Assembly (NCBI RefSeq): GCF_030758935.1
Contig: NZ_CP132333.1
Coordinates: 2,914,992 to 2,978,991 of the forward strand
Direction: 5' to 3'
DNA length: 64,000 nucleotides
Origin: Geothrix sp. PMB-07
Lineage (GTDB): Bacteria > Acidobacteriota > Holophagae > Holophagales > Holophagaceae
Both the position numbers and the translations under genes were made by a program. Numbering within the stretch: position 1 is the stretch's first letter; each line of letters starts with the position of its first letter. Positions 37,626 through 63,641 of this stretch are shown here, piece after piece. The notes under the pieces were generated by a model. It had not been told where the DNA came from. It did no database searches and was given only the letters and a program-made list of their open reading frames with translations.

Positions 37626-37671
37626 CCAACCTTGAACCAAACCCCATTCAGCGCCATGATGGAAGGTCGCA

Positions 37672-37714
37672 GTACCCGTAGCTCAGTTGGATAGAGCGTT
37701 GGCCTCCGAAGCCA
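37672..37714 (+). tRNA. tRNA-Arg(CCG), 5' half only
   Basis: The sequence from GTACCCG through the D-arm (GCTC-AGTTGGATA-GAGC) to the anticodon arm (TTGGC-CTCCGAA-GCCA) is a standard tRNA-Arg with anticodon CCG. Homology stops one base before the anticodon stem closes. No T-arm, acceptor 3' strand or GGTTCGAATCC follows anywhere in the window. This is a tRNA fragment at the edge of an integrated element, with the complementary half expected at the other end. Confidence 0.8.
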
Positions 37715-37755
37715 CGAGTCCTTCTTTGACGACTCATTGATCTTCAACCAAAAAT

Positions 37756-37880
37756 GTTGTATTTAGACGACTTATCAGATTGCATCGCCTGTTAAGGGAA
37801 TTTTAAAAGCCCTAATAGGCGTTATTTGAAACCTAAATACAACCCATATCCTGGCAAATCCTGGCAAAAATCCTGGCAAA
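37756..37880. repeat. Attachment-end repeats: nested palindromes and three phased direct repeats
   Basis: GTTGTATTTAG (37756) pairs with CTAAATACAAC (37833), enclosing a second imperfect pair (CGCCTGTTAAGGG with CCCTAATAGGCG). Then ATCCTGGCAAA occurs three times, at 37848, 37858 and 37870, spaced 10 and 12 bp, so on the same face of the helix. This layout resembles arm-type or accessory sites of site-specific recombinases. Confidence 0.6.
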
Positions 37881-37884
37881 AGAT

Positions 37885-37912
37885 CACAAAAATATGGCCC
37901 CAAATCGGGGCC
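37885..37912 (-). terminator. Rho-independent terminator of the first element gene
   Basis: On the minus strand GGCCCC-GATTT-GGGGCC is followed by ATATTTTTGTG, 26 bp after the stop of the gene ending at 37938. Confidence 0.8.
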
Positions 37913-37937
37913 GTATTTGTAGTGAATTTTGCATCGA

Positions 37938-38660
37938 TTAGTCGTCGTCATCCGGAGCATTAAGGGGCGAAACGCGGAGAGTCTTCCAATTGACCTTGTA
38001 ACCCTTCTTGCGGAGGTAATCCTCTTGAAGAGCCTTCGACTCTGCAGGGCTGGCGGTTTTCAGCGCCCGTCGAAGTTCGCGTTGCGCATCAGCGTCCTGT
38101 GCCCTTTTGTCGTCTTGGGCCTTGCTCGCGAGCATCTGCTCAAGCTGGAGATGCTGAACTACTCTGGCTTTCCCGACAATCCAGGCATTCCGTCCGCCGT
38201 CTGGTCCGAGCTGTTGGAACCACCCCGCTTTGTAAGCCACGGCGTTCGTGAACGCCTGATCATATACATCTTGGAGAGGACGGTCGCACCCAACGGGTGC
38301 CGACACGAGACCGTCGTTGATGAGCATCCCACCCACGGTCAGCCGCGTGGACGGCCTCCAACCATCGCTCACGCGGCGGACCACCCATAGGTCTGCGTAG
38401 CCACTATCCACATCAGGATCGTTTGTGAGGGCGACCTCCCAGGAACTGCTGCAGAAACGATCCAGTGAAGCCTGGGCCATGGCCTGCGCTTGGGCAGTCG
38501 GTGGCTGAGAAAGAGGCAGTGCCACACGGAATCGTTCTGGCAGGTTTGGGGCGTCTGCCAGCCCCACAACGAGGCCGGGGTGGGACCCAGCAACATAGTA
38601 GTGCTGGGCTGATAAAGCCACCGAGACCAGGGAGAAAACCAAGAGGAGGAGTGAGCGCAT
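37938..38660 (-). CDS. Secreted protein of unknown function
   Basis: 240 residues. A signal peptide (MRSLLLLVFSLVSVALSAQ) is followed by a beta-rich region with two aromatic segments and a Lys/Arg/Asp-rich helical C-terminus from about 165 (LEQMLASKAQDDKRAQDADAQ), ending in DDDD. I do not recognise it. It is the last gene before the element's left end and has its own terminator. Confidence 0.65.
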   Translation of the reverse strand: MRSLLLLVFSLVSVALSAQHYYVAGSHPGLVVGLADAPNLPERFRVALPLSQPPTAQAQAMAQASLDRFCSSSWEVALTNDPDVDSGYADLWVVRRVSDGWRPSTRLTVGGMLINDGLVSAPVGCDRPLQDVYDQAFTNAVAYKAGWFQQLGPDGGRNAWIVGKARVVQHLQLEQMLASKAQDDKRAQDADAQRELRRALKTASPAESKALQEDYLRKKGYKVNWKTLRVSPLNAPDDDD

Positions 38661-38663
38661 AAT

Positions 38664-38867
38664 CTAGCCTTTCCGCCGCGGTGCGTGGCTCTTGGTATCG
38701 CGGTATCCGAAGTAATCGACCTCGTCGGGAGGCCATGAAACGACTGGCGCAGTGGACCCCAACCTCTCGTTTTTCCATGCCTCGAAACGCTTCAGCTCAG
38801 CCTCAACAGTGAGACCACGCCGAGGTCCGCGAGCGCTCACTGGGGTTCGAGCGGTGCGAGTCATCAC
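38664..38867 (-). CDS. Small basic hypothetical protein
   Basis: 67 residues, Arg-rich at both ends (MMTRTARTPVSARGPRRG, SHAPRRKG), with a short amphipathic helix between. It overlaps the RHH gene upstream by 4 bp and is 3 bp from the next gene, so it belongs to the parA operon. Function unknown. Confidence 0.5.
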   Translation of the reverse strand: MMTRTARTPVSARGPRRGLTVEAELKRFEAWKNERLGSTAPVVSWPPDEVDYFGYRDTKSHAPRRKG

Positions 38868-39157
38868 AGCTCCTCCTTTTTGGGAGTGAACCGCTCAATG
38901 AACTGAGGACTGGCCAATGCCAGGCGGAGGGCCTCACCGACAAGGACGCCGAGCGGCACCTTGGTATCGAGCTGGAATATGCGAAGTTCCCGCGCAGCAT
39001 CAGCGGCAATTCGGCAATTGATGCGCTCGACTCCTTCGGTGTGGGTGCGAGGCCTACCACCAACATTGATGGTAGGAGCCTTGGCCTCCACCTTCTGAAG
39101 GTGCTCCGGGCGCGCCTTGGCGCCGCCCTGGAGCCAGGCTTTCGGATCTGCACTCAC
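38864..39157 (-). CDS. RHH-like DNA-binding partition partner
   Basis: 97 residues. A flexible basic N-terminus is followed by RINCRIAADAARELRIFQLDTKVPLGVLVGEALRLAL, a ribbon-helix-helix-like core. It is coupled to parA by a 4-bp overlap, as ParG-like centromere-binding proteins are. It probably binds the ACGTT-rich region upstream of parA (inference). Confidence 0.6.
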   Translation of the reverse strand: MSADPKAWLQGGAKARPEHLQKVEAKAPTINVGGRPRTHTEGVERINCRIAADAARELRIFQLDTKVPLGVLVGEALRLALASPQFIERFTPKKEEL

Positions 39158-39813
39158 AGGACCTCCTTTACGGCAAATGGGATGTCGAGGCCAAGGATCT
39201 CGGCGACACGGACCATGGCCTCGCGAACCTCAACGCCCGCGGCGTTGGGTTGCTGGCAGGCGGCAATGCCGCGGCCAAAAGCGTCGACGAGGCCCTGGCG
39301 TTCCTGGACCAGACCAGCGAAGTGGATGTCCTCCTCAGGGCTGGCCGACGCCTCCAGGGCTCCTGCCCAATTCCTCCACCAGCCAGTGTTCGCCCGGTAA
39401 TTGGTCCCAAGGATGGCGACGCGCATCTCGGGGTTGGCCCCTGCCTTCGCGGCGCGGACAAGATCCAGGGTTCGCCCAAGGCCACGCAGATCCTGTGGAC
39501 TTGGACCAACAGGCACCAGAATCCCTGCCGAATAAGCCAAGGCCGTGCGGGTCTCCTCGCCCTCCCACGGTGGGCAATCGGCCACGAAGATCTGTTTGCC
39601 CTTAGCGGCCTGCTCAAGCAGGCCGAGGTCTGTTGGGTAGAGGCTGCGACACGGAACTGCCGCCAGCTCGGCCCAAGCCCTGAAATCGCCATTCTCGGGG
39701 TTCAGATCCAGACCCTTGGCCAGCAGACCGTATTCAGCCAATAGTGATGCCAACTCCTTGGAATAAGTGGTCTTACCTGATCCACCTTTGAGGTTGATGA
39801 GGCTAATGAGCAT
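39154..39813 (-). CDS. parA: ParA-family partition ATPase
   Basis: 219 residues from the ATG at 39813 with AGGAGGG 5 nt upstream. Deviant Walker A KGGSGKTT (9-16), with the signature Lys, follows LISLINL. FVADCPPWEGEET resembles the Walker A' region and VPVGPSPQDLRGL the Walker B segment. It would partition or stabilise the element when excised. It is first of a three- or four-gene operon with an RHH partner. Confidence 0.88.
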   Translation of the reverse strand: MLISLINLKGGSGKTTYSKELASLLAEYGLLAKGLDLNPENGDFRAWAELAAVPCRSLYPTDLGLLEQAAKGKQIFVADCPPWEGEETRTALAYSAGILVPVGPSPQDLRGLGRTLDLVRAAKAGANPEMRVAILGTNYRANTGWWRNWAGALEASASPEEDIHFAGLVQERQGLVDAFGRGIAACQQPNAAGVEVREAMVRVAEILGLDIPFAVKEVL

Positions 39814-39840
39814 GTTCCCTCCTGGAAGCGTCATCGGCAT

Positions 39841-40075
39841 TTTATGAACGTTCTAAAGCCCTAAAGTCAAGAACGTTGAAAGTTTTGAACGCTCGACGTT
39901 TTGGCGTCGCAAACCTCAAAACCCCAAAACGTTCAAATTTCTATTGTCGAAATATTAAGGCATTTCGACGTTCTTACGCTTATACGTTACGAAGCCAATA
40001 ACATCGAAACGCCGAAAGTTTTGGCGTTTTTAACGTAATGTTTAAATCGCCAAAGGCCGATAAAACCAATAGAAG
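39841..40075. promoter_or_regulatory. AT-rich ACGTT-repeat region: candidate centromere/operator
   Basis: This spacer between divergent parA and a secreted-protein gene holds seven ACGT(T/A) cores (near 39848, 39873, 39895, 39928, 39968, 39984 and 40032). They include the palindrome GAACGTTC at 39846 and a direct repeat GAAAGTTTTGRMCG at 39878 and 40014. Such clustered repeats beside parA commonly serve as parS and operator. Confidence 0.5.
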
Positions 40076-40083
40076 GAGACCCC

Positions 40084-40560
40084 ATGAAGCCACTTATCCT
40101 CGGCCTCACGCTTGCGCTCACCACCCTCGCCCAGGCCAGCGACTACCCGCGTACCCTCCCGCGGGAGTATTACCTTGAGACCGCCAGGCGTGGCACCAAC
40201 AAGAATTGCTATTTCTGGGTGGCCCCAGGCTTCGACCGCTCTCGTGGCATCACCTGGAGTGGCGAGGTTGAATGGGCCGCCAAGGAGCGTTCGGTCGAGT
40301 TCCTCAAGACCCTAAAGCAGGGCCTGAAAGACATCACCACCGCACATGGCGCCTATAGCCTCAAGGTGGCCGTGGTGCTCGTGGAGACCGATTTCTGGGC
40401 CACCGGAGACGCCCGAATTGAGGTCGAGATCCGCGACGAGGCAGGTCGAATCATGGCACTCGGTTCCGATTGGGCCATGACTGCGATGGGCGGTGCGAAT
40501 GGCCAGAGGGCCCTAGCCGATAGCGTCGTTGGAAGCCTTGAAGCCGACCTGTTTAAGTAG
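40084..40560 (+). CDS. Small secreted protein of unknown function
   Basis: 158 residues, with GAAGGAG upstream of the ATG. Signal peptide MKPLILGLTLALTTLAQA. The mature part is a compact alpha/beta domain with DYPRTLPREYYLETARRG and VETDFWATGDARIEVEIRDEAG. I do not recognise it. It is the first plus-strand gene after the parA region. Confidence 0.65.
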   Translation: MKPLILGLTLALTTLAQASDYPRTLPREYYLETARRGTNKNCYFWVAPGFDRSRGITWSGEVEWAAKERSVEFLKTLKQGLKDITTAHGAYSLKVAVVLVETDFWATGDARIEVEIRDEAGRIMALGSDWAMTAMGGANGQRALADSVVGSLEADLFK

Positions 40561-40579
40561 CCCCCCCAAAAACAACTTT

Positions 40580-40636
40580 GGTCACATTTGTACCATCAGA
40601 CATTCAGCGGCGAGTCCATGCGGTCGAAATGTGACC
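40580..40636. repeat. Inverted repeat GGTCACATTT / AAATGTGACC
   Basis: Two perfect 10-bp arms are separated by 37 bp in the spacer between two plus-strand genes. They could be a paired operator or the base of an RNA stem. Confidence 0.45.
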
Positions 40637-40731
40637 TGAAGACGTATGCACCGCCATTACCCTGTCGAAGCTTGGCGATTCATAGCTGAGATAGTGATTC
40701 CAAATATTGAGACAATCTCTGGGATGAGATC

Positions 40732-41817
40732 GTGCTGATTGAGAAAATTCGTTCGTTCTTCTCGCCCTGGTGGTCCAGACCGCTTTTCGCTCTTAGTGTT
40801 GGCGCTTGCCTCACCACCCTGTTGCTGGGTGGCTTCCCTGAAGCAATGAAAGCCGCTTCCAAGGGAATCTCAGACCAAATTCAAAGCGCAATCGGACCTA
40901 CCGAACAGCAGATCCGTGCCCAGGAATTGAGCGAAGAGTTACGAAGACAGTCTCAAGAATCTCAAGAACGAATGGCAAAGCTCCGGGAAACGCCACCGCC
41001 CACCAGAGGGAAGAAAAAGCGCGCCCAGGACAAAGCCAACGAGGCAGATGAAGTGAAGGCTCTAGCTCCCATGCATGCCAAGCGAGAAACTTTAATCGAC
41101 ATTTCCGCTAAACAACTAGTACTGACGCTGAGCGTGGTGGTGGTGATCAGTCTCTGGCTCGCGTTATCTGCGTTCGCGGGAAGAATTTATCGAAAACGGA
41201 TGGAGCGGATCCTATTCCTGGCCCGAGATGCTGAGAGGCGACGTCGGGAATCTGTCATTCGCCACAATGAGCGAATCGACTACTACCGGCAGTTTCCGTT
41301 AGCCGACCACACCCTCTGTTCAACATGTGGCTGGATTGGCCTCTTTCGAAGCAATGCACCTACTTATGATGGGGCGAAAGCCATTGGTACTGCTGCGGCT
41401 GTCGGCGGAACAGGCCTGGCTGCCGCAGGATGCGGTGGATCCGCTCTAGGGATCATCTTGATCCTGATCGGACTGCCTCTTCTTTTCCTTTTTTGCATCG
41501 GCGTCATCCCAATCGGCATTGGAATCTTCTTAATCATTGCTGGTGGAACCGCAACCACCGCTGGGGCCACCGTTGCGGCCTCAGGTGCCTCCTCCGCTGC
41601 TGGTGCCACTCAAGCCGCGCAACGTGCTGCCGCAGCACCAAACCAATGCCCACAATGTAAGAACGTCGGCCTGATCCCGGCGTTATCACCAATGGGCGTT
41701 CATCAAATCGAAAACACACCCACTGTTGCTGCGGCAGCTCAGGCCGAATCCATCCGCGTCATCGAGGGTCTTCCTAGCGTTATCGACATTGAACTCCTTC
41801 CAACCCTAGAGGGCTGA
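40732..41817 (+). CDS. Membrane protein with zinc-ribbon cysteines and glycine-zipper helices
   Basis: 361 residues from a GTG start. One membrane segment lies near 15-35, then a charged coiled coil (50-115) and a second segment (about 128-148). CSTC (about 202-205) and CPQC (about 304-307) look like halves of a zinc ribbon split by about 90 residues of Gly/Ala-rich hydrophobic sequence (AVGGTGLAAAGCGGSALGII and later ASGASSAAGATQAA). The arrangement is unusual and I know no family. Confidence 0.6.
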   Translation: MLIEKIRSFFSPWWSRPLFALSVGACLTTLLLGGFPEAMKAASKGISDQIQSAIGPTEQQIRAQELSEELRRQSQESQERMAKLRETPPPTRGKKKRAQDKANEADEVKALAPMHAKRETLIDISAKQLVLTLSVVVVISLWLALSAFAGRIYRKRMERILFLARDAERRRRESVIRHNERIDYYRQFPLADHTLCSTCGWIGLFRSNAPTYDGAKAIGTAAAVGGTGLAAAGCGGSALGIILILIGLPLLFLFCIGVIPIGIGIFLIIAGGTATTAGATVAASGASSAAGATQAAQRAAAAPNQCPQCKNVGLIPALSPMGVHQIENTPTVAAAAQAESIRVIEGLPSVIDIELLPTLEG

Positions 41818-41871
41818 CATCCAAAGCATTAAATGTTTGGTGGTATAAACTCCTAAAGCAGGAGGGCCACC

Positions 41872-42345
41872 ATGGGCCGACCCCCAAAGCCAGGTGAAAA
41901 GAAGGAGCGAACCCACCCCCAGGGGCGTGTGGCTGGTCCGTTCCAGAAGCCACTTAGCCTAAGGCTTACGCTTCGGGGTTGGGAAACTCTGGTGGCCGAG
42001 CGCAAGGCCCTCCAGGATCTGGTAGACCGCGGCGAAATATCCCAGGCGGAATGCTCCTATAGCTACATCCTGGAGAGGGCTCTGACTCAGCACGCCGCTC
42101 GTGCCAACACGGCGGAAGGCAAGGCCGCCGACCTGGCGTTTTTGGCGGATCTCCGGAAGCGCTGGCAGACCGAAAGCCCCAAACCAATGCCCCTGGCATC
42201 CTCCATGGGCACCGCAGACATCAAGGCGCTCGTTCGGCAGGAATTGGCCTCGGCTCTCCAAAGCGAACTACCGGGCATCCTTCAGGCCATCGCTGACGGG
42301 GCCGGAAAAGCCGCTAAGGCACCAGCCAAAAAGCCTAAAAGGTAA
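41872..42345 (+). CDS. Hypothetical DNA-binding-like protein
   Basis: 157 residues, with GGAGGG 5 nt before the ATG. The basic N-terminus MGRPPKPGEKKERTHPQGR resembles AT-hook or relaxosome proteins. A helical core follows (RLTLRGWETLVAERKALQDLVDRGEISQ, then SYILERALTQHA), and the C-terminus is Ala/Lys-rich (AKAPAKKPKR). It may be an accessory DNA-binding protein; unproven. Confidence 0.55.
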   Translation: MGRPPKPGEKKERTHPQGRVAGPFQKPLSLRLTLRGWETLVAERKALQDLVDRGEISQAECSYSYILERALTQHAARANTAEGKAADLAFLADLRKRWQTESPKPMPLASSMGTADIKALVRQELASALQSELPGILQAIADGAGKAAKAPAKKPKR

Positions 42346-42360
42346 GGCCCCTACCCCAAA

Positions 42361-42409
42361 TCCTCGGCGCTGTGCGCCTGCGGGGATTTAACGCTTTTGG
42401 CCAGAGATC
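42361..42409 (+). repeat. Element-specific structured repeat, copy A
   Basis: TCCTCGGCG, 5 bp, GCGCCTGCGGGGATTTA, then a variable stretch and CCAGAGATC. The left part can fold with AAATCC upstream against GGATTT. The same unit occurs at 49461 and 63642. Here it lies between two convergent genes. Confidence 0.7.
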
Positions 42410-42413
42410 CTAG

Positions 42414-42662
42414 TCACGGCCTCCATTTCTTGGCGTCGGCGGGGTCACCTTTTTCTCTTGCACGAGATTCCCACTGATCAGTGCCCGCGTCCAAGATGAA
42501 ACCCATCCCGACGCCAGGTTCCCCAACGATCAAAGTGTGCTGATGAACTCGATCAATTCGCATGAGGGTATCGCGTCGGCCAGAGCCCTTGGAAAGCTTC
42601 GGCTTGATGGTGAGGGCCTCAGCAAAGCACTCAACGAAGGAGTTCCAACGAGTGACCAGCAT
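42414..42662 (-). CDS. Small hypothetical protein
   Basis: 82 residues from an ATG with AGGAGG 5-6 nt upstream; the longer frame to 42824 would overlap the preceding gene and has no ribosome site. It contains EALTIKPKLSKGSGRRDTLMRIDRV and ends in KKWRP. No recognisable domain. It is third in a minus-strand run from 43253. Confidence 0.5.
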   Translation of the reverse strand: MLVTRWNSFVECFAEALTIKPKLSKGSGRRDTLMRIDRVHQHTLIVGEPGVGMGFILDAGTDQWESRAREKGDPADAKKWRP

Positions 42663-42711
42663 GTTCGCCTCCTGGCGGGTGATGTCCCAATGGATAAATT
42701 GTTTTCGTTTG

Positions 42712-42978
42712 CTACCAACGAACCAGCCGATGGCCGAAGGCGTCGTAGGCCAATCCAATGACGCTGCGCCTGGCGCGGACAGTGTTGAGCTGGCCGAAAG
42801 GATGGTTCGATTCGTAGCTTTCAAAGCTCTCGCCGAGGGCCCACAACCCCCACGTCGCCCACGACAGAATGAGGAATTCGCTATCGCAGCCGAGGTCTAC
42901 AAGCATTGAAAGAATGAGCATCAGGGTTGCACCAACACAGATGCCCAACGCAAGCCGGTAGGGTGTGGATTCGCTCAT
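42712..42978 (-). CDS. Small membrane protein
   Basis: 88 residues with two hydrophobic segments (YRLALGICVGATLMLILSML and FLILSWATWGLWALGE). It overlaps the upstream gene by 4 bp. Function unknown. Confidence 0.5.
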   Translation of the reverse strand: MSESTPYRLALGICVGATLMLILSMLVDLGCDSEFLILSWATWGLWALGESFESYESNHPFGQLNTVRARRSVIGLAYDAFGHRLVRW

Positions 42979-43253
42979 CCCCGCACCTCCATAGCGGCAA
43001 AGGCCTCCGGCGGGAGGTCTTCGCCGCGGCGACGAAGCTCTTTGCGCAGGACGCGAAGTGTCCCCTGAGCCTGTTGGAGGCGACCGAAGTTACTCCCCCG
43101 AGAATAGGCCTTGCTGGTCCACTCGGTCTGCGTATCGGCCTTCCGAGCACAGGCTTCAGTGTGGCCGAGAAGGGCTTCGTCAACATCCCGGACCAGCCGT
43201 TCGATAAGCATCCTTTCAGTCCGGCTAAGGCCACTGATCAATTGGGTCTGCAT
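42975..43253 (-). CDS. Small helical hypothetical protein
   Basis: 92 residues with long amphipathic helices (SRTERMLIERLVRDVDEALLG; RLQQAQGTLRVLRKELRRRG). It is the first gene of the small minus-strand run and coupled to the next by ATGA. Function unknown. Confidence 0.5.
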   Translation of the reverse strand: MQTQLISGLSRTERMLIERLVRDVDEALLGHTEACARKADTQTEWTSKAYSRGSNFGRLQQAQGTLRVLRKELRRRGEDLPPEAFAAMEVRG

Positions 43254-43359
43254 TCCATCTCTCCCCTCAAGGCCTTATCGGCAACGCCTATTGAGCTTTA
43301 ACTATTTATCCCAAACTAGAGGCATCTCTTCCGCCTTCCAACCCCGCCTTTGCCTTAAC

Positions 43360-43647
43360 CTACGAGGCCCAAACCATCCCGGCCAACCGCGGCGCGAGGA
43401 CTTCAACCAACGGCGTCCGACCCTCCAAGGCAACACGATGCCGCAGCGCCTCTCGCGTCATCGAAGTGAGCCGCTCTTCGAGTCGGTCAGCGGCTTCTAG
43501 GAGGCAGAGACGATTTAGCAAGGCGATGTCACCAAGCAACGCATCCATCTCCTGTTCGAGGCGTGCAAGCCGAGCCTGTAGGACCCGCCGACGGAAAGAT
43601 TCCTGCCGGGCTTCGCTATAGGCCGTAATTGAGGTTTTGTTTCGCAT
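43360..43647 (-). CDS. Small coiled-coil hypothetical protein
   Basis: 95 residues from the ATG of MRNKTSITAYSEARQE; the frame upstream runs into the GC-rich block and is not credible. Residues 12-70 are a strong coiled coil (RRRVLQARLARLEQEMDALLG, LLEAADRLEERLTSMTREAL). Function unknown. It lies immediately downstream, on the minus strand, of the hairpin-rich region. Confidence 0.5.
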   Translation of the reverse strand: MRNKTSITAYSEARQESFRRRVLQARLARLEQEMDALLGDIALLNRLCLLEAADRLEERLTSMTREALRHRVALEGRTPLVEVLAPRLAGMVWAS

Positions 43648-43656
43648 GTCCGCTCT

Positions 43657-44100
43657 TTTTGGTTTGTGGTGACCGCCGCGCACTCCCAACGGGAGGCCGG
43701 GGGCCTTACCCGGCCTTCCACAGGCGAAGCCCCAGGGACGAAGGAGCCCGAAGCGCAGGGGGAAAATCGGAGGGACCCGCTCGCGGGAGACCGGGGCCGG
43801 AGGCCCGCCCGAAGGGCGTTTTCTCCTTGCGCGTAGGGACCGCGAAGCGGCGGGTTTGGGGGGACCCGGCGAGGAACCAGGCCAGCGCAGGAGGGCGCAC
43901 TTCCCGACGAGCAGGACTGGCAGCCGGGGCACCACGAACCCGTCCTGACGGACCACCCCCTGGAGCGGCGGTCATTCGATCCAGGGCTCAATCTTTCGTT
44001 GGTTTCATGGAGGTCCGGGGTTCCCCCCCGGCAGATGGGGAAGGAGAGACCGCTCGCGGGCTCGACTGGGGGAAGGGGCTCCGGCCCTTCCCCCGACCTT
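43657..44100. ncRNA. GC-rich, hairpin-dense non-coding block: candidate structured RNA or oriT-like region
   Basis: This segment of about 440 bp is much richer in GC than its neighbours and has only arginine-rich shadow frames. Stable hairpins follow one another: AGGCCGGG/CCCGGCCT (43694-43716), CCCGC-TC-GCGGG (43776-43787), CGCCC-GAA-GGGCG (43806-43818), CCGC-GAA-GCGG (43840-43850), CCGGGG/CCCCGG (44015-44031) and a 10-bp GGGGGAAGGG/CCCTTCCCCC (44068-44094). The string CCGCTCGCGGG occurs twice. The strand is unknown. Confidence 0.4.
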
Positions 44101-44169
44101 AGCTGTTGCGCAAATTAAGCCCAGGTTTATTGCTACCCTGACGTTTCTACCACCAGACAAAGGTGTTCA

Positions 44170-44766
44170 ATGAACCCCAAAGACCCTGATTACGACGAAT
44201 GGCTCCAGTGCATGAATGGGATTTCCAGCCTCGACGATTACGCCTATGTCGTTTTGAAATTCATCGCTGACACAGCCAATTTCGTTGTCTCAAGCTGCAA
44301 TTTGGCCTCCCGGCATTCGACCGGGTCCAGCATCTCCGAGCAAGAACACCTCATTGCCGAGAGGACCTTCGCTTTATTTGCTCACCTATTCAATAGGGGC
44401 TGGATGGCACATGGCTGTTCAACCTGTCACTTAGCATCAATCCAGGAGTCGATCTGGCCAAAATTGGCACGCCTGGCTGTCATCAATCACTATGGCGAGC
44501 GCCCAGATGAAATCCTGGAGCACGAAATGGACAAGGTCCTCCACCGGTTCAACAGCGCCGAGATTCTGTACTCGAAGTGCACGGAACTAGTCAGCAAAGA
44601 GAACCCCTTTTCGCCCACTTCACTCTTCGGGCTCTTTAGCCACCAGGTCGCGAAAGTACTCGGATGCGAATCAGACCCTTACGAGCTTTTCGCCATCCAC
44701 CACGCCGCTGCCCAGCTCTTCACCGACCTCGATGAGCTGGCTAAGCACGCAAAGCACGTCACCTAG
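44170..44766 (+). CDS. Hypothetical cytoplasmic protein
   Basis: 198 residues, mostly helical, with several Cys and His (HGCSTCHLAS near 80-89, CTEL, CESD). No signal peptide or membrane segment. I do not recognise it. It precedes the AAA/TOPRIM pair by about 310 bp on the same strand. That spacer (44767-45075) holds a TTATAGA promoter-like string near 44830 but no gene I can support. Confidence 0.55.
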   Translation: MNPKDPDYDEWLQCMNGISSLDDYAYVVLKFIADTANFVVSSCNLASRHSTGSSISEQEHLIAERTFALFAHLFNRGWMAHGCSTCHLASIQESIWPKLARLAVINHYGERPDEILEHEMDKVLHRFNSAEILYSKCTELVSKENPFSPTSLFGLFSHQVAKVLGCESDPYELFAIHHAAAQLFTDLDELAKHAKHVT

Positions 44767-45075
44767 TGCAGCACAAAGCACGCCTAGACATAGTCCAGTA
44801 AGACGACAATCGCCTCTGAATTGAGGAGCATTATAGAGGTATGGTGACCCCCCTGTGGGAGACTGCCGAACCAGACCGAGGCCACCAGTCCAGCACAAGG
44901 CCGACTCTGACGGGACCACAACAATGGGCTCGGGTAGGTCAGATAGGCAGAAAGGCATTTGCCTGAGCCAGAGGAATCACTGGCAGGAGGGCAGGATGCG
45001 ATCTCCTCTCTTCAGTGCTGTAACCCTGGAAAACAAGCTGGCCTTCCGCTATGCTCGGCGCTTCAGAGGGTGGCG

Positions 45076-46353
45076 ATGGCGCGTCTTCTTGGTATTCGAA
45101 TCAAAAACTACAAATCGTTCGCCGATATTAAACTCGGCCAAACAGATTATGGAAAAGGTGAGCCACTTCCTAGTTTCGTCTGCTTCATTGGACCGAATGG
45201 TTCTGGGAAATCGACACTCCTAGATGCGTTTGGATTCGTTTCGGACTGCTTACTCGAAGGTGTCGAAGGGGCTTGCGACAAACCTGCCCGTGGCGGGTTT
45301 GAGCGCCTTCGAACCCAGGGATCGACAGGACCAATTACTTTTGAAATTTTCTTCGAGCATGATGACCCGGATCGACCAATTGTCTACAAACTCCAAATTG
45401 ATCTAATCGACGGTGTCCCTTCGGCCGTCAAAGAGACTCTTCGGCAACGCCGTAGAGGTGAAACACGCGGTCAGCCTTACTACTTCCTAAATCTCACCCG
45501 TGGGCGAGGAAGGGTATGGGCAGGCGATCGCGTCGGGGCAGCTAAGGACGTGAAGGCCTCTAAATCAGTTCGATTGGCAGACTTGAATCAGCTTGGCCTA
45601 GCAACACTTGGTAACCTTGCTGATCATCCGCGAATCGTCGCTCTTCGTAGTTACGTCGAGCAGTGGTACCTATCATATTTTGTTCCTGATGCAGCGCGCG
45701 AGCTACCGCCGTCAGGAGCACAGAAATGGCTTGATCGTAAGGGTTCAAACGTTGGAAACGTTCTTCAGTATCTTGAACGGACATACTCAAAACCCAACTT
45801 TCAAAAGATCATCGACCGAGTGACGCGCGCCATCCCGGGGCTAAAGAACATCAAGTGTGAACCGAGTGCAGACAAGCGACTGCTCATCCGTTTCGATGAA
45901 GCAGGTTATATGGACCCCTTCTACCAACAAAGTATGTCCGACGGTACGTTAAAGATGCTTGCCTATGCAGTGTTATTGTCTGATCCGCAACCTCGCCCAT
46001 TCATCGGAATCGAGGAACCTGAGAATGGACTTTACATCGACTTGATTGAGCACCTAGCCCGCCAGTTTGTATCCCATTCATCAAACAAAGATAGGCCTAC
46101 CCAGATTCTTGTAACCACCCATTCGTCCTACTTTGTGGATGCACTTGGTCCCGATCAGGTTTGGATCATTCGGAAGGGAATTGATGGCCATGCGGCTGCA
46201 ACGCGGGTGGCTGACCTTCCGAATGTGCGTGAGCTGACATTCCAGGGCGTACCACTGGGCGCCCAGTGGTACAGCGACCATTTTGGAACCGAGGAAATTC
46301 CTTCTCTCGAACAACTTGAGAACCCCAAAACGACTAGGGCGTCAGCGCAATGA
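45076..46353 (+). CDS. AAA15/AAA21-type ABC-ATPase (SMC/OLD-like), probable defence sensor
   Basis: 425 residues from the ATG of MARLLGIRIKNYKSF; the frame further upstream is not conserved. Walker A GPNGSGKST (39-47), signature SMSDGTLKM (286-294), Walker B FIGIEEPENGL (309-319) and switch His in VTTHS (349) are intact, with a helical insertion between. This architecture belongs to OLD/PARIS/RloC-like ATPases that sense phage or foreign DNA. The next gene starts inside its stop codon (ATGA) and encodes a TOPRIM-like protein, the usual partner. Confidence 0.85.
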   Translation: MARLLGIRIKNYKSFADIKLGQTDYGKGEPLPSFVCFIGPNGSGKSTLLDAFGFVSDCLLEGVEGACDKPARGGFERLRTQGSTGPITFEIFFEHDDPDRPIVYKLQIDLIDGVPSAVKETLRQRRRGETRGQPYYFLNLTRGRGRVWAGDRVGAAKDVKASKSVRLADLNQLGLATLGNLADHPRIVALRSYVEQWYLSYFVPDAARELPPSGAQKWLDRKGSNVGNVLQYLERTYSKPNFQKIIDRVTRAIPGLKNIKCEPSADKRLLIRFDEAGYMDPFYQQSMSDGTLKMLAYAVLLSDPQPRPFIGIEEPENGLYIDLIEHLARQFVSHSSNKDRPTQILVTTHSSYFVDALGPDQVWIIRKGIDGHAAATRVADLPNVRELTFQGVPLGAQWYSDHFGTEEIPSLEQLENPKTTRASAQ

Positions 46354-47033
46354 AGGTTCATGTACTTGTAGAGGGAAAATCTGATAAAGCATTTATTGAT
46401 GGTTGGGCCCCTCGGGCTTTCAGAGGCCACTCATTCCAGACCCACGCGCACCAGGGGAAAGGGACCCTACCACGAGATCCTTCTGCACCCCCGCTGCCGA
46501 GGCGTCAAGGCCTTCTTGATCTGCTTCCTGCTAAATTGCGCGCCTTCGCTGCGGTTGCTTCCGAAAACGACCATGCCGTCCTTGTTCTTGTCGATGCTGA
46601 CGATGAAAATTGCGAGATTCTCAAGCAGAATCTTGTCGAGATATCGAATAGTCAGGCTCCGAGCCTAAACGTAGTTTTCCGGATTGCAGTCGAGGAAAGT
46701 GAAGCGTTCTACCTTGGCGACCTTCGAGCACTCAAGCTAGCCTTCCCCCAAGCAGACATGCAGAAAGCACAAGCATACAGACCTGATTCCGTTTGTGGGA
46801 CTGCCGAACTATTCTGCGAAATCGTGGGAGACGGAACGATGGACAAGGTTTCTTGGGCCGAGAAAATGGGGCCTCGTATGACGATTCTTCCTGAGCAGAG
46901 TCGCTCGCCTTCATTTCGTGCACTTCATGCAGGAATAGAGAAACTCACCACTCAAACTGTCACCGAACCAAAATCAGAGAAGCGGAAATACCGTCACCTG
47001 CCCCGAACATCGCCCATTCGGCGCCAACGATAA
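46350..47033 (+). CDS. DUF4276/TOPRIM-like effector paired with the AAA ATPase
   Basis: 227 residues. The TOPRIM pattern is visible: Glu8 in VLVEGKSDKAF, the acidic triad VLVDADDEN (D82, D84, D85) and a later acidic cluster VEESEAFYLGD (E115-E118). These match the DUF4276/DUF4435 families, which act as nucleases or toxins next to AAA ATPases. The basic tail (KSEKRKYRHLPRTSPIRRQR) could bind nucleic acid. The 4-bp overlap implies a two-protein complex. The PARIS comparison is analogy, not identity. Confidence 0.78.
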   Translation: MKVHVLVEGKSDKAFIDGWAPRAFRGHSFQTHAHQGKGTLPRDPSAPPLPRRQGLLDLLPAKLRAFAAVASENDHAVLVLVDADDENCEILKQNLVEISNSQAPSLNVVFRIAVEESEAFYLGDLRALKLAFPQADMQKAQAYRPDSVCGTAELFCEIVGDGTMDKVSWAEKMGPRMTILPEQSRSPSFRALHAGIEKLTTQTVTEPKSEKRKYRHLPRTSPIRRQR

Positions 47034-47088
47034 TCCCCAAGCCACCTGATGGCGATTGGTAGACCTTGCGGTAGAGAGTAGAGGTCGC

Positions 47089-47193
47089 CTAAGCGGCCTC
47101 TGCTGGTTTCTCTATCGCATTCCGACGAAGGATGAAATCGGCAGCTTTCTGGGAGTGTTCCGCGGCCGTACCCAACCTAGAGATTCGACGCAT
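47089..47193 (-). CDS. Short open frame, possible gene fragment
   Basis: A 34-codon frame (MRRISRLGTAAEHSQKAADF... ending EAA) is bounded by stops, has a helical, protein-like composition and no good ribosome site. It may be the tail of a decayed gene. It is embedded in the 200-bp spacer after the TOPRIM gene, next to the imperfect hairpin GAGGTCGC/GCGGCCTC. Confidence 0.2.
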   Translation of the reverse strand: MRRISRLGTAAEHSQKAADFILRRNAIEKPAEAA

Positions 47194-47234
47194 ACTGTCC
47201 AACCCAATGCCCCAGTCTCAGGCTAGGAGCAACC

Positions 47235-47462
47235 ATGTGCCTTGGACCGGAGTTCTTCGACCAACGTGAGGAGATGATCCGAACCCGTGAGGCCAAAGGC
47301 ATCTTGGAGGTCGAACACTTCATCCGGTCTAAGCGGCTGTGCCTCAACACGCTTGTCGAGCTAGGTTATTTCGAGTGCAACATGGAGCCACCCAACACGG
47401 CCGAGGTCTTCCTCGAAAGGGTTTCAAAGGTGCCCAGCAGGAACCAATTGGCGCCTCGGTAG
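47235..47462 (+). pseudogene. 5' fragment of an unknown gene, truncated at a deletion junction
   Basis: The ATG has AGGAG 6 nt upstream and codes for MCLGPEFFDQREEMIRTREA and onward, a credible protein to about residue 67. From about 47,435 the sequence is the reverse complement of an ArdC gene, so the last ten codons are foreign. The family of the N-terminal part is not recognised. Confidence 0.45.
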
Positions 47463-47596
47463 AGGTTTCCTGCCACGTTGCGGGGTCGCGTGTTTCCCGA
47501 AGCCCTCAGGGCGCACCAGGGGCGACGCCAGGGGATCTTCCCGCCAGCCAGCATGGCGGCGATCTTTTCGGTGACGACTTCATAGGTTTTGCTCAT
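47366..47596 (-). pseudogene. ardC: Truncated ArdC-like antirestriction gene
   Basis: MSKTYEVVTEKIAAMLAGG, then KIPWRRPW and NLYRGANWFLL, are the first 50 residues of ArdC (DUF1738, single-stranded-DNA-binding part). The homology stops at about 47,435. The metalloprotease-like C-terminal domain (HExxH), normally giving about 300 residues, is missing. Confidence 0.7.
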
Positions 47597-47628
47597 GGCG
47601 ATCAGCAAGGAATCGAGGGGATAAAGAA

Positions 47629-47655
47629 GGGGCCGCCGAAACTACCGGCGGCCCC
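47629..47655 (-). terminator. Terminator after the ssb-like gene
   Basis: GGGGCCGCC and GGCGGCCCC form a strong stem, followed on the minus strand by TTCTTTATC. It lies 8 bp beyond the stop at 47663 and separates this gene from the ArdC fragment. Confidence 0.8.
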
Positions 47656-47662
47656 TGGTTGG

Positions 47663-48124
47663 CTAGGCCTGCACCTTCACCGGGCGGGCCAGCAAGTAGA
47701 AGTTCTGCGCGGCGAACTCAGTGGCGACGCAGCTGTTCTCGTCCTTGTCGGTGTAGGGGCGTTCGGCTTCCTGGCCGTGGACGAGGACCTTGGCACCCTT
47801 GTAGAGCAGGTTGGCGGCACGTTCGGCTCGCTTGCCCCAGCGGGAAACCCGGTGCCAGACGGTGCTCTTCTTGCCCTGGGCGTCGCGCACTTCGGTGGCG
47901 ATGCTGGCCCGATCAACCGTCAACGCAAAGAAAGCCTCATGCAGCTTGCCAATGGGGCGGGTTTCGATGAGAACCAGACGGCCTTCGTGACGGCTTTCCT
48001 GGATCGAAGTAGTAGCACCTTCAAGAAAGCCATTGTTGAAATTGCTTGGGGGTCCTTTGTCTGGCTTGTCTCTGAGCCAGACAATCTGATCGATATGCGT
48101 GATGGTCGGGCAACCACCCTCCAC
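47663..48124 (-). CDS. ssb: Single-stranded DNA-binding protein (SSB-like)
   Basis: Up to 153 residues from a GTG; the true start is uncertain. From about residue 48, GRLVLIETRPIGK, FFALTVDR, TVWHRVSRWGKRAERAANLL, KGAKVLVHGQEAERPYTDKD and ATEFAAQNFYLL follow the SSB OB-fold. The protein lacks the acidic C-terminal tip (DDDxPF-like) that recruits host partners. The first 45 residues do not look like SSB. Such plasmid-type SSBs protect single-stranded DNA during conjugal transfer. Confidence 0.72.
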   Translation of the reverse strand: MEGGCPTITHIDQIVWLRDKPDKGPPSNFNNGFLEGATTSIQESRHEGRLVLIETRPIGKLHEAFFALTVDRASIATEVRDAQGKKSTVWHRVSRWGKRAERAANLLYKGAKVLVHGQEAERPYTDKDENSCVATEFAAQNFYLLARPVKVQA

Positions 48125-48170
48125 ACCCTAAAGGCTCAAGGCTGATTGAACACGTACTGCCGGAGCAATC

Positions 48171-48548
48171 ATGAAGATTCAAGACGAACACCTTGAAGCA
48201 ATCATCGTTTCCATGCTCGCTGTTAAAAATTTCAGCTTGGAACGAGCCTATGGGTTGCTTCCTGCCATGAGGAAATCCGGTCTAACTTGCCCGAAATCTG
48301 TGATCGACACTCCGCCAGACACGATTAAGGCTGAACTGGCCAATGCAGGCTATCAGCGTGGCCACCTCACAAAAATGTTCGCCGAACGTCTGATTTCTCT
48401 TATGAAAGTGGTCGATGCGGGGAAATTAGACTGAATTGGCTCCTTGGTATCGAAAAGAAAGGAGGACGAAGCGCAGGAAGCACTCTGTATGGTTCCGGGA
48501 ATAGGGCCAAAAGTTGTTGCGCACGCATGGCTTTTGATGACGACCTAG
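48171..48548 (+). pseudogene. HhH-GPD (endonuclease III-like) fragment with an in-frame TGA
   Basis: An 87-codon frame with CGGAG upstream ends at a TGA (48432-48434). The same frame continues for 37 codons and contains ALCMVPGIGPKVVAHAWLL, a helix-hairpin-helix DNA-glycosylase motif, before a TAG at 48546. The parts together resemble a small HhH-GPD domain. A nonsense mutation is the simplest reading; readthrough cannot be excluded. It converges on radC. Confidence 0.6.
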
Positions 48549-48566
48549 CCAGGGAACAGGGACTCC

Positions 48567-49217
48567 TCACCGGTCCCACCCCTCAGCAGCCCTGAAGCTG
48601 TGCCAGGTTTCGCCGATGATGATGTGGTCGGCGAGCGGAACCCCGAGGGCATCGCCCGAGGTTCGGAGGCGTTTCGTGAGGGCTGCGTCCTCACGAGAGG
48701 GCGTGGGGTCGCCGCTGGGATGGTTATGCCAGGCGAGGGCTGTGGTCGCTCCGAATCGGAGCGCCTCACGGAAGAACTCCCGAGGAGAGACCATGCAGGC
48801 TGTGGCCGTTCCGCGAGCGATAATGCGGTCTGCCAGCACTCCTCCCTTGGCATTGAGGGCCACCAGCCCAAAAACTTCCTCCGTGAGGCCCTGGGCCTTC
48901 GGCAGGAGGTAGGCTCCGGCCGCACGCGGGCTACATATCTTCTCGCCAGGCTTGCGGGTGCTGCGCCGCTGCACCTCGACGAGGACAGAGATCCGAGCGG
49001 CCTCCGACTCAGTTAGACCGATTTCGGTTAGCTCAGCAGGTCCCATGGCAAGGAGTGGGCGGAACCCGCCGACGATTACCATGAACTCGGCGGCCCGCGG
49101 CAGGGACGGCGTGTCGAGCATCGCCTCGATGATCTGTTCATCGGTCAGGGCTTCGGGTCCGTAGACGGCCACCGTCTCGGCTGCACTCAAGATGTCGCTA
49201 AACAGTCTGCGTTTCAT
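48567..49217 (-). CDS. radC: RadC/JAMM-domain protein
   Basis: 216 residues, with AGGAGG before the ATG. The JAMM metalloprotease-like site is AWHNHPSGDPTPSREDAALT (H164, H166, S174, D177) with a preceding Glu in LTEEVFG. The N-terminal UPF0758 helix-hairpin-helix domain is present but short. RadC homologues are frequent on conjugative elements; their role is still unclear and they are not proven DNA repair enzymes. Confidence 0.9.
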   Translation of the reverse strand: MKRRLFSDILSAAETVAVYGPEALTDEQIIEAMLDTPSLPRAAEFMVIVGGFRPLLAMGPAELTEIGLTESEAARISVLVEVQRRSTRKPGEKICSPRAAGAYLLPKAQGLTEEVFGLVALNAKGGVLADRIIARGTATACMVSPREFFREALRFGATTALAWHNHPSGDPTPSREDAALTKRLRTSGDALGVPLADHIIIGETWHSFRAAEGWDR

Positions 49218-49460
49218 GGGACCTCCTCATGCCGCTTTGGGCACCAAGAGGCCGGACGCCAAGCTCCCCAGGAGTGAACCGGGAAAGAACCGAGAATTGG
49301 GCAAAGAGCGGGCAACGACGCCGCGGCGCAAAAGCGTCTCAGGCCAGTGCCGAAGAAGGCTGGGTGGTCCTTTCCGCAATCAATGTCGACATCGGGCAAC
49401 AGAAATGGATGACGGCCTTGCCAGAAAGGCCTCTATCCACTGCACTCGAAATACAGCATC

Positions 49461-49508
49461 TCCTCGGCCCTTGGCGCCTGCGGTGATTTACCGCCAGGGT
49501 CAGAGATT
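49461..49508 (+). repeat. Element-specific structured repeat, copy B
   Basis: TCCTCGGCCCTTGGCGCCTG, then CGGTGATTTACCGC and CAGAGATT. It aligns with copies A (42361) and C (63642) with small changes in the loop regions. It lies in the 509-bp spacer between radC and the next plus-strand gene. Confidence 0.7.
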
Positions 49509-49511
49509 CAC

Positions 49512-49690
49512 GAAAAAGAGCCCCGCGGATACGGGGCTCAGGGGTTGGGGATCCGACGATCTCCGGCGACCGTCGACGCTCGGGTCGCATCCCTGCGTTG
49601 CCCTGTCTTCCGACGGATATGGCACAAATCGGCCTCGAATGCCTAATCATTTAGGGCTTTTTTGCTTTAACGCTTCATATTTGTTCACAC
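49512..49690 (-). ncRNA. Candidate small RNA with its own terminator
   Basis: On the minus strand a canonical terminator, GAGCCCCG-TATCCG-CGGGGCTC followed by TTTTT (49513-49539), has no protein gene before it that I can support. Upstream lies AT-rich sequence with TATGAAG and TAAATGAT strings near 49650-49690 that could act as a promoter. The transcript would be about 110-170 nt. Confidence 0.35.
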
Positions 49691-49726
49691 CATGTCGAAT
49701 AGCTATAGAGCGGAAAGGATTCTCCG

Positions 49727-50020
49727 ATGAAGACATCCACCTCAACTTGCCTTCTGGAACGAAATGGCGACGTTGCCATGCTCGCCTATGGACCAACGCC
49801 AGTCCTGGATTTGTTGACCAGAATTGGCTATCGAACCTCGAATGGACAAGGCTCAAGAGGACGCGGGGTTTGGCTTCGCGGAACAAGCATCGATGCTGGT
49901 TTCGAGGTGATTAGCCAGGCGGTTGCCCGCGGCAAAATGTGGATTCATCCACCCATTGGAGAGCCTGTGGTGGTGAGGCTTTGCGAGGTATTGGCGACTA
50001 ATTCGGTCGGGGAGGAATAA
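49727..50020 (+). CDS. Small hypothetical protein at the head of the VirB-like run
   Basis: 97 residues, AAGGA 7 nt upstream. It contains VLDLLTRIGYRTSNGQGSRGRGVWLRGTSI and a C-terminal EVISQAVARGKMWIHPPIG; no signal peptide is clear. Its stop is followed one base later by the next start, so it is translationally linked to the VirB-like genes. Function unknown. Confidence 0.5.
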   Translation: MKTSTSTCLLERNGDVAMLAYGPTPVLDLLTRIGYRTSNGQGSRGRGVWLRGTSIDAGFEVISQAVARGKMWIHPPIGEPVVVRLCEVLATNSVGEE

Positions 50021-50021
50021 C

Positions 50022-50177
50022 TTGGGGATTATTTTTCACGGCCTCAGCTTCGTGGCGATGGCCCAGGCACCGGCAGCCACGGCATCACTCCTTACTGGCG
50101 GCCTTCTTGGCTTGTGGAGCGCCTGGAAAATGGTTAGCGCCTCGGCTGAATTGTTTATTTATTTGAGGAGGCTCTAA
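50022..50177 (+). CDS. 51-residue small membrane protein with TTG start
   Basis: A TTG start has GGAGG 6 nt upstream, and the stop overlaps the next ATG (TAATG). The product (LGIIFHGLSFVAMAQ... ending YLRRL) has a hydrophobic core containing LLGLWSAWKMVSASAELFIYL. This closely resembles LLGLWGSWKLIGAAVELFSYL of the VirB6-like protein 2.5 kb downstream. It may be a VirB2/VirB3-like or regulatory subunit. Confidence 0.55.
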   Translation: MGIIFHGLSFVAMAQAPAATASLLTGGLLGLWSAWKMVSASAELFIYLRRL

Positions 50178-51835
50178 TGGGGTTGATCCATGAAATCGCC
50201 TACCTGGTGGTATCGGCCGTGTTCCCATGCCTTACGGCCGAGACGTTTGCGTCCTGGCGACTTGGGCGAAGGCTCACAAGCGGTGCTCTTGCCGGACTGT
50301 TGATCATGGGGGCCATGCCCGCCAAGGCACAAACGACTGACGTTCCAGCCTTCTGGCAGCGAGCCGCGGAATACATGAAAACCGCATATCGAGAGGTGAA
50401 ATCAGACCTCCAGTGGGTGGAATCCAAAGCAACCACTGACTACTGGGCTGTTCGTCAGGCCATGGCCACATACGAGGACTATCAAAACGGCGTACGTCTT
50501 TACCAGCGCGTTACCAACCCGAACACATCAATCAACCTGATTCAGGGCATGCCAATGCTGGAGGCATTCGCTAGCCAAACCGATGGAGCCGAGGATCACT
50601 GGGTGTTGCGTCCAGTTTTGCGCCCTCAGCAGAGGCTGAACTCGCCCCATCTTCCCGGAATGAATTTCGGCGGCTTTGAAGACATCTACTCCGGTCTTAA
50701 GACCGGCAACCTGAATTTTGATCTCGACCATTTTACGATTGTGAGGCGTGCTGATGACGCAAACCTATCCCCTGCCGAGTTGCAAAAGCGTGCCACAGAA
50801 GACGCGTGGGGCAATTGGCGCAGTGCGCAGAAAATCAACGAGGTCGAGGAGGCTTATTACGATGTTCCGTTCGACGCTAGTACCTATATCGGCCTCAAGC
50901 AGGAGACACAGGCCTATTTTCGTAAGCGTCGTGAAACACTTCAACGATCAGCAGAATTTCTCTCGGCACGCGGCCAGGACGACCCGACTTATCAAGCGGC
51001 ACTGAAACTCCTCTCTGACCTAAACGATGCGCTTGCCAAAGGTGAGGACACTCAGGCCGCTGAAAACACAGCAAATCGCCTGCTCAAAATCGATGGCCAG
51101 GCGGCGGAGGTGGTTGCTATTGTCGCGCGGTTGCGAGTGGCGGTCGGAGAAGTGGCGAAAAGACAAAGCACGAAGCACGACAACATCCAGGAGCTAAAAA
51201 GCCAGTACAAGCCTCCCGCAGAGGGGGTTCTTTCATTTACGAGTTGGTTCAACAAACTGGGCGACAACAACGGGAAAACCGCCAACAAGGAGCAGCTTTC
51301 AGCGGCGATGCTAGCCAACGCCCATGCGGAGGCAAGCGGCACAAATGTTGAGGAGCAGCTCAAGCACAATCTGCTGACCCAAATCCAGGACCAGAACGAC
51401 AAACTTCGAGATTTTGCTTCCCAGAAGGCTCGCGCCTTCCAGGACATGCGCGGAATCATGGGCGATCAATGGTATGCAGAGCAAATGGGACTGCTGAATC
51501 TACAGATTCAACAGGACACGACGATGGCTCGGCTGCGACTGATCCTCGCGAAACTTCCCAGTCCGACGATGATTCCGGTTCGCGTTCCCGACCAGCTTGC
51601 TACGCTGCCAGGAACCATTCCTGCATCATCCGCTCAACAGGTTAAAAACCCGGCCGAGGCGATCGCGGCAGACCTCCCTGCGAAACTCGCGAGCCGGTTG
51701 AGTGATGTAACGGGATACGTGAAATCCAGCAAAACCATGAGCCTTGGCGCACTCCAGCCTGTACTCGAGGGCCTGGATGCTGGAGCCAGGGCTGTCTTTG
51801 GAAAAAGCTTCAACCTGTCGAGCTGGGGGTCGTGA
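50177..51835 (+). CDS. VirB5/TrbJ-like periplasmic transfer protein
   Basis: 552 residues. A signal peptide ends near GAMPAKAQ (about residues 45-53). Long helices follow, including ATYEDYQNGVRLYQRVTNPN, which matches the TrbJ/VirB5 helical core, and two coiled coils (about 240-330 and 380-450). It is much longer than ordinary VirB5 (about 220-260). The gene is coupled to its neighbours on both sides. Assignment rests on order and pattern only. Confidence 0.6.
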   Translation: MGLIHEIAYLVVSAVFPCLTAETFASWRLGRRLTSGALAGLLIMGAMPAKAQTTDVPAFWQRAAEYMKTAYREVKSDLQWVESKATTDYWAVRQAMATYEDYQNGVRLYQRVTNPNTSINLIQGMPMLEAFASQTDGAEDHWVLRPVLRPQQRLNSPHLPGMNFGGFEDIYSGLKTGNLNFDLDHFTIVRRADDANLSPAELQKRATEDAWGNWRSAQKINEVEEAYYDVPFDASTYIGLKQETQAYFRKRRETLQRSAEFLSARGQDDPTYQAALKLLSDLNDALAKGEDTQAAENTANRLLKIDGQAAEVVAIVARLRVAVGEVAKRQSTKHDNIQELKSQYKPPAEGVLSFTSWFNKLGDNNGKTANKEQLSAAMLANAHAEASGTNVEEQLKHNLLTQIQDQNDKLRDFASQKARAFQDMRGIMGDQWYAEQMGLLNLQIQQDTTMARLRLILAKLPSPTMIPVRVPDQLATLPGTIPASSAQQVKNPAEAIAADLPAKLASRLSDVTGYVKSSKTMSLGALQPVLEGLDAGARAVFGKSFNLSSWGS

Positions 51836-53154: not shown

Positions 53155-53359
53155 ACGTGGTCGACCCACCTCCCCAGTCCGGCGCCACCCAGTCGGCCTT
53201 ACCCTCTCCGAGGAGTTGCTCCACATCGTGGATGAGGAGGTCCTCCGTCGTCGTAGCCTAGCCATCCAGGGGAAGGTCCACGCGTCGCGGGCGACACGAA
53301 CCGCGGTGCTCACGGAGGCTCTTGAAGCCAAGTTCCGACTGAAATTGAGGGCACTATGA
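53147..53359 (+). CDS. Small RHH-like DNA-binding protein
   Basis: 70 residues from the ATG of MPKRGRPTSPVRRHP (a TTG at 53129 is possible). VGLTLSEELLHIVDEEVLRRRSLA and ATRTAVLTEALEAKFRLKL resemble ribbon-helix-helix regulators. It overlaps the genes on both sides by a few bases. It may regulate the transfer operon or act in the relaxosome. Confidence 0.55.
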   Translation: MPKRGRPTSPVRRHPVGLTLSEELLHIVDEEVLRRRSLAIQGKVHASRATRTAVLTEALEAKFRLKLRAL

Positions 53360-54027: not shown

Positions 54028-54184
54028 GCCCGAAGCCGGGATGACGCTCCTTCCCCAGGGCAAAGTAGCGCAGCTGAAGAACGCCCCCCCCAGGGGAGGC
54101 TTCCGGTCTTGATTACTTGATTTTTGACCGCATAAATTCGAGTATTTTGCTATCCTTGCCCAGTTTTAACAACATGGAGATTTT

Positions 54185-55198: not shown

Positions 55199-55262
55199 GA
55201 CCCTCAAGAGAATGAGGTTCACTTTGTCCCCAATCCTCCACATTTATAGATAGGGAGAGAGC

Positions 55263-56761: not shown

Positions 56762-56962
56762 TTCACAAAAGAATGGCAGGTTCTCCCTTGAACTAAACCG
56801 CTAGGCAGGGGGCATAAGCGCATCTGGCAACTTGGGAAGACGAGAGGTTAAAGCTGTGATGGTGAGGCTCGCCACTTGTGTTACCAACTGAGTTTAATCA
56901 AACCACAAAGCAATAGACCTAAATAGCAATATTTATTTATTTGCAATCGAATATGTTAATCA

Positions 56963-57004
56963 CCCCAAAGAAGAAGCCCCCTTTCGGGGGCTTCTTCTTT
57001 GGGG
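56963..57004. terminator. Long bidirectional terminator
   Basis: A perfect 19-bp inverted repeat (CCCCAAAGAAGAAGCCCCC and its complement) with loop TTTC lies between the convergent phospholipase-like and coupling-protein genes. The preceding spacer from 56,762 holds nothing I can support. Confidence 0.85.
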
Positions 57005-57020
57005 TGCTCCCTCCCTATAT

Positions 57021-58910: not shown

Positions 58911-58925
58911 GGGTTCTCCTCTGAT

Positions 58926-63624: not shown

Positions 63625-63641
63625 GAGAGGCTGCCTTCAAG

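Follow-up and report, generated by a model that had tools for sequence, protein, structure and literature searches.

A half tRNA-Arg(CCG) gene as the left scar of a 5'-type integration in Geothrix sp. PMB-07, with a candidate replacement promoter in the integrase 3' end

We analysed a window of 64,000 nucleotides from the genome of Geothrix sp. PMB-07 that contains half of a tRNA gene. On sequence evidence, this half tRNA is the left scar of a site-specific integration in the 5' configuration, in which the 5' fragment of the gene was displaced and the tRNA was rebuilt at the integrase end, and a consequence that the first-pass annotation had missed is that integration separates the rebuilt tRNA from its own promoter. 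The explanation as a whole, comprising 5'-type integration, a rebuilt tRNA, arm sites and a new promoter for the rebuilt tRNA, is in our judgement very likely correct. The direct repeat, the rebuilt tRNA, the empty site and the displaced native promoter can all be read directly from the DNA.

Positions 37672-37714 of the window are exactly nucleotides 1-43 of tRNA-Arg(CCG). With one upstream base they form the attL core (37671..37714, plus strand), a 44-bp direct repeat whose second, identical copy was found by whole-genome search 38,323 bp downstream (genome positions 2990985-2991028); an exact repeat of this length is not explained by chance. The intact tRNA-Arg(CCG) occupies genome positions 2990986-2991062, outside the window (L003:11995-12071, plus strand). 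The two copies first differ at the last base pair of the anticodon stem (GCCA/C versus GCCA/A), and thus the first-pass description of a tRNA cut inside the anticodon stem proved exact when aligned with the intact copy. That annotation had also stated that the tRNA is not rebuilt on the window side, where indeed only the 5' half stands, and had allowed either that the intact gene lies at the other end or that the host lost this copy. The former is the case, with the intact gene 38,323 bp downstream, and the latter is not, as the single tRNA-Arg(CCG) of the genome is intact (further copies were searched for and none found). Beyond position 64,000, where it had advised looking, there are both a whole tRNA-Arg(CCG) and a tyrosine integrase. 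Neither ARAGORN nor Rfam reported a tRNA in the window, because only half a tRNA is present there.

The remaining arginine tRNAs of the genome have the anticodons TCT, TCG, ACG and CCT. CGG accounts for 31% of arginine codons in seven host ORFs, and tRNA-Arg(TCG) might read it by wobble. An initial assumption that tRNA-Arg(CCG) is essential was withdrawn, since tRNA-Arg(TCG) exists.

The direction of the event is clear from the empty site in a sister genome, G047, which lacks the element. There, a left flank matching ours (86% identity over 1500 bp, ending at the base that precedes the tRNA) runs straight into an intact tRNA-Arg(CCG), and the left-flank gene at 34950-37625 of the window is syntenic host DNA. 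The first-pass reading would have fallen had an element-free relative carried the same truncated tRNA; the G047 tRNA is intact. The arrangement also corresponds to an Islander island: an intact tRNA and its cognate fragment lie on the same strand of one contig, 38,323 bp apart (2-200 kb allowed), the 5' fragment (nucleotides 1-43) is upstream of the intact tRNA, as in the Islander configuration filter, and a tyrosine integrase is encoded inside the island. To these criteria we added an empty site in a relative, which G047 provides.

The in-window part of the 38,323-bp element spans 37671..64000, and the element runs on to genome position 2990984. Its G+C content in the window is 0.50-0.61, versus 0.62-0.69 just left of the core; a second low-G+C region (0.46-0.50) lies at the left edge of the window (1-6000), outside the element. 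The direct repeat, the integrase and the intact tRNA at the far end together support the earlier suggestion that the window site is an element end. The tyrosine integrase (382 aa; L003:10830-11978, plus strand) reads towards the tRNA, with its stop 16 bp before the intact gene. It matches Pfam Phage_integrase (2.1e-24) and PHROG 1 (9.5e-51), has the R, HxxR, H and Y motifs as LGLRESE, HRLR, LGH and Y, and is not of the Xer or integron type, scoring far below the NCBIfam cut-offs for both.

Three further genes are on the minus strand, encoding a VirD4/TraD-type coupling protein (57021..58910; Pfam TrwB_AAD_bind, 1.8e-9; TraG-D_C, 1.2e-8), a candidate relaxase (58926..60263; HYH motif by eye, without a Pfam hit) and a ParA-like ATPase (39154..39840; Pfam AAA_31, 1.1e-10; PHROG 164 ParA-like, 9.7e-16). 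A ribbon-helix-helix protein (60202-60660; RHH_1, 2.6e-4) adjoins the candidate relaxase, and the element also encodes SSB and RadC. Self-transmissible ICEs are defined by a coupling protein together with a relaxase and a VirB4-type ATPase. Here the coupling protein is present but no VirB4-type ATPase was found among the large ORFs scanned, so we call the 38.3-kb element integrative and probably mobilizable, not self-transmissible. The scanned parts of the element held no other tRNA gene. Other contents include a possible anti-phage pair (window 44959-47033), made up of an AAA_21 (OLD/Abi-type) ATPase and, after it, a DUF4276 protein, and, near the right end, an 1850-aa protein whose sequence resembles that of an RHS-repeat protein (L003:965-6517), with an IS200-type Y1 transposase ahead of it (L003:420-884).

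The left end of the element (37715..37925, plus strand) consists of hairpins, arm-type repeats and a terminator-like stem. The hairpins lie at 37715-37735 and 37756-37766/37833-37843, the latter an inverted repeat pairing at 11 of 11 positions; the stem at 37890-37918 is formed by an inverted repeat (37890-37901/37907-37918) pairing at 92%, and on the minus strand it stands as a terminator-like structure after the leftward gene. The RNA fold of 37672-37925 has a z of -3.7. The ATCCTGGCAAA-type repeats of this end are three copies of CCTGGCAAA (37850..37880, plus strand) starting at 37850, 37860 and 37872, the first of them 136 bp beyond the left core. Nested palindromes and three repeats spaced by 10 and 12 bp had been described in the first pass, and we confirmed both the positions and the spacing. 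The total number of CCTGGCAAA copies in the window is unremarkable (three were reached in 9 of 100 shuffles), and the chance of three within 31 bp is about 1e-7. Two more copies occur at the far end, at L003:11946 and 11958, within 60 bp before the intact tRNA. A different element in G055 has one CCTGGCAAA on its left at offset 137 (versus 136 here) and two inverted copies on its right. The repeats on both sides look like candidate arm-type sites of the integrase.

The integration can be described as follows. The attP of the element carries the 5' half of the host's only tRNA-Arg(CCG) gene, so that integration leaves the host promoter and the 5' half at the left and rebuilds the whole tRNA at the right, as the sequence shows. 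Strand exchange by the encoded tyrosine integrase would presumably take place within the 7-nt anticodon loop CTCCGAA, with the integrase binding the arm sites on both sides.

We considered whether the half tRNA could be a pseudogene or a segmental duplication unrelated to any mobile element, as the genus has many tRNA fragments near tRNA genes. The integrase, the direct repeat, the G+C step, the arm repeats at both ends and the empty site in G047 make this very improbable. It is scarcely credible, too, that the integration was of the 3' type and the window end a displaced fragment of an element lying left of 37671, despite the drop in G+C at 1-6000: the fragment is a 5' half that follows the native promoter, G047 shows the left flank with the gene at 34950-37625 to be syntenic host DNA, and the intact tRNA on the right side refutes such an arrangement.

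The main consequence of this 5'-type integration concerns the promoter. The native promoter of tRNA-Arg(CCG) (37632..37660, plus strand) consists of TTGAAC (37632-37637), a 17-nt spacer and CATGAT (37655-37660). TTGAAC-N17-CATGAT is found directly before tRNA-Arg(CCG) in 30 of 39 genomes of the genus with an intact copy (29 by pattern search, with G017 added), and the other nine (G000, which is the genome studied here, G003, G011, G019, G023, G042, G053, G055 and G056) have a different upstream region. G022 was rejected as a genome without tRNA-Arg(CCG), as its contig ends there. In G000 and G055 the native promoter is kept at the displaced 5' half. In our genome it now precedes the truncated copy only, reading into the hairpins of 37715-37925, and is absent before the rebuilt tRNA. 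Because the 5' half that was left behind carries the native promoter, the rebuilt tRNA needs a new one.

A -10 motif was learned, unsupervised, from 38 distinct upstream regions of the genome's other tRNAs. The resulting host motif, NGSTAGACTG, occurs in 28 of the 38 regions, mostly 3-26 nt ahead of the gene. One strong match, AGGTAGACTCGA, stands out in the 200 bp that precede the rebuilt tRNA; it scores 10.5 bits (P = 4.7e-5 per site against the 64-kb background, 0.009 in 200 bp) and lies in the coding end of the integrase gene, where the next-best score across the whole gene is 4.2 bits. The candidate -10, TAGACT (L003:11905-11910, plus strand), is within the last integrase codons, 84 bp before the tRNA (81 bp from the end of the 12-base match), and would give a long leader compared with the approximately 3-26 nt of native sites. 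Among the 3' ends of 11 related integrases, none reaches 10.5 bits (best 7.9). No good -35 was present 15-19 nt upstream of this hexamer, and scanning the integrase 3' end for generic sigma-70 promoters found nothing.

Other islands at tRNA genes in the genus show which copies have such a site. At tRNA-Arg(CCG) in G055, a different element, of 5,095 bp, is bordered by the same 44-bp block; it contains an integrase (L054:1843-2884) that is, by eye, of the integron type and apparently frameshifted. In G016, the 5' 41-nt half of tRNA-Arg(CCT) is displaced together with 23 more upstream bases that include its -10, the two ends of the case being on different contigs. The common 3' type is seen at tRNA-Arg(CCG) in G002 and G052, where nucleotides 32/33-77 are displaced and a related integrase adjoins the fragment. 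A whole or nearly whole tRNA is duplicated with related integrases in G007 (tRNA-Thr), in our own genome (tRNA-Phe) and in G006 (tRNA-Met), this last pair perhaps being a natural tandem copy instead. The copies that need a promoter (G000, G016 and G055) do have a -10-like site, and two of the three whole-tRNA duplicates at the integrase end are without one. An integrase scan of genome contigs gave nothing closer than distant relatives from other phyla, a few of which lie near tRNAs, and these were left out of the evidence.

Several side observations concern the same loci. The whole tRNA-Phe copies of our genome (G000:C1:264500-272500, L055) are separated by 4.7 kb that include a related integrase, and each has a promoter -10. 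A displaced 3' tRNA piece with anticodon arm TTC, probably of tRNA-Glu (G000:C1:3261445-3261501, L230), is beside an integrase match (3260100-3260555) and marks a second island scar. Small palindromic repeats seem to be inserted at tRNA-Arg(CCG) genus-wide (L002:1620-1770, after the intact tRNA of our own genome; L027, L030, L031, L033, L034, L048 and L049). The downstream palindromic copies start with the inverted T-arm (GAATCGAACCAGCGAGTGG) and often end in a copy of the tRNA 3' end; upstream, the promoter and tRNA nucleotides 1-19 are found in tandem (a unit of approximately 153 bp) with a GAGGCTCCGCCTCC...CTGTCC palindrome.

A -10-like site scoring 4.9 bits or more stands 72-115 bp before the tRNA in each of the nine replaced upstream regions. 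This is the best site in seven of the nine, a better one being elsewhere in G023 and G003. The combined P value of 3e-6 for the nine overstates their independence, as the regions are partly related. The word GCCAGG/CCTGGC, counted post hoc, occurs within 130 bp in 8/9 replaced upstream regions versus 1/18 native ones. In G019 and G053, only 67-84 C-terminal integrase residues are left before the tRNA. Such relics suggest that as elements decay the promoter piece tends to stay, presumably because the tRNA now depends on it.

We lean towards transcription of the rebuilt tRNA from the host-type -10 promoter in the last integrase codons, possibly joined by integrase read-through, with the transcript trimmed by RNase P. 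Alternatively, after the same 5'-type integration, transcription of the tRNA could depend entirely on read-through, coming from the integrase or from an element promoter upstream, and the -10-like site would be a coding coincidence. The integrase and the tRNA are on the same strand and 16 bp apart, a -35 was not found near the candidate -10, and the integrase promoter is reported to drive expression of archaeal pTN3-type tRNAs (PMC8371274). However, the 10.5-bit site is single, relics without the rest of the integrase have one in a similar position, and a tRNA that is needed all the time would be poorly served by an integrase that is normally silent, all of which makes sole reliance on read-through rather unlikely. 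A broader proposal built on the embedded promoter, which we regard as evenly poised between right and wrong, is that the integrase 3' coding end doubles as promoter of the anticodon-split tRNA, that such elements repeatedly replaced the promoter of one tRNA across the genus, and that the integrase 3' stubs are domesticated promoters remaining after element loss.

This kind of integration is already known but uncommon; the integrase-embedded promoter and the repeated promoter turnover are what we infer from sequence comparison, and we found no description of such a promoter in the literature searched. Islander lists 159 islands with a 5' fragment versus 3760 with a 3' fragment, of 3919 (PMC4383910). 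The former resemble our element in their tyrosine integrase, intact tRNA with a same-orientation 5' fragment upstream, and anticodon-centred site (PMC4383910), whereas our case differs in the -10-like promoter proposed for the integrase 3' end and in the promoter relics traced across the genus. According to a review, loss of the native promoter is very rare among rebuilt tRNA genes of bacteria, with pTN3-like archaeal integrases as the contrasting case (PMC8371274). pTN3, which needs nucleotides 2-44, separates tRNA-Leu from its promoter (PMC5495485), and pTN3/TKV-type archaeal elements likewise share the tRNA 5' half and part the gene from its native promoter (PMC5495485, PMC8371274). However, pTN3 integration splits its integrase gene, whereas the integrase ORF here is complete, ends 16 bp before the tRNA and belongs to a bacterial host. 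State-dependent promoter switching in ICEKp1 is similar in that integration links element and tRNA transcription, but it is a mirror image: ICEKp1 is transcribed from the tRNA promoter and moves the terminator away (PMC13023037), whereas here the element's promoter seems to drive the tRNA, whose downstream hairpin stays in place. In tRNA-dependent lysogeny, too, integration disrupts a tRNA gene of the host, whose function has to come from the element; there the core is approximately 10 bp and a phage tRNA gene substitutes (PMC10865867), whereas here the tRNA is rebuilt through a 44-bp core.

This locus and its relatives are clean, testable exceptions to the rule that rebuilt bacterial tRNAs keep their promoters. 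Elements of the 5'-half and 3'-half types occur at the same tRNA in one genus, with whole-tRNA elements of the same integrase family at other tRNAs, and thus the choice of which side is restored is open to direct study. Once a host tRNA is transcribed from an element, losing that element could come at a cost, and the promoter stub can persist after the rest of the element has gone.
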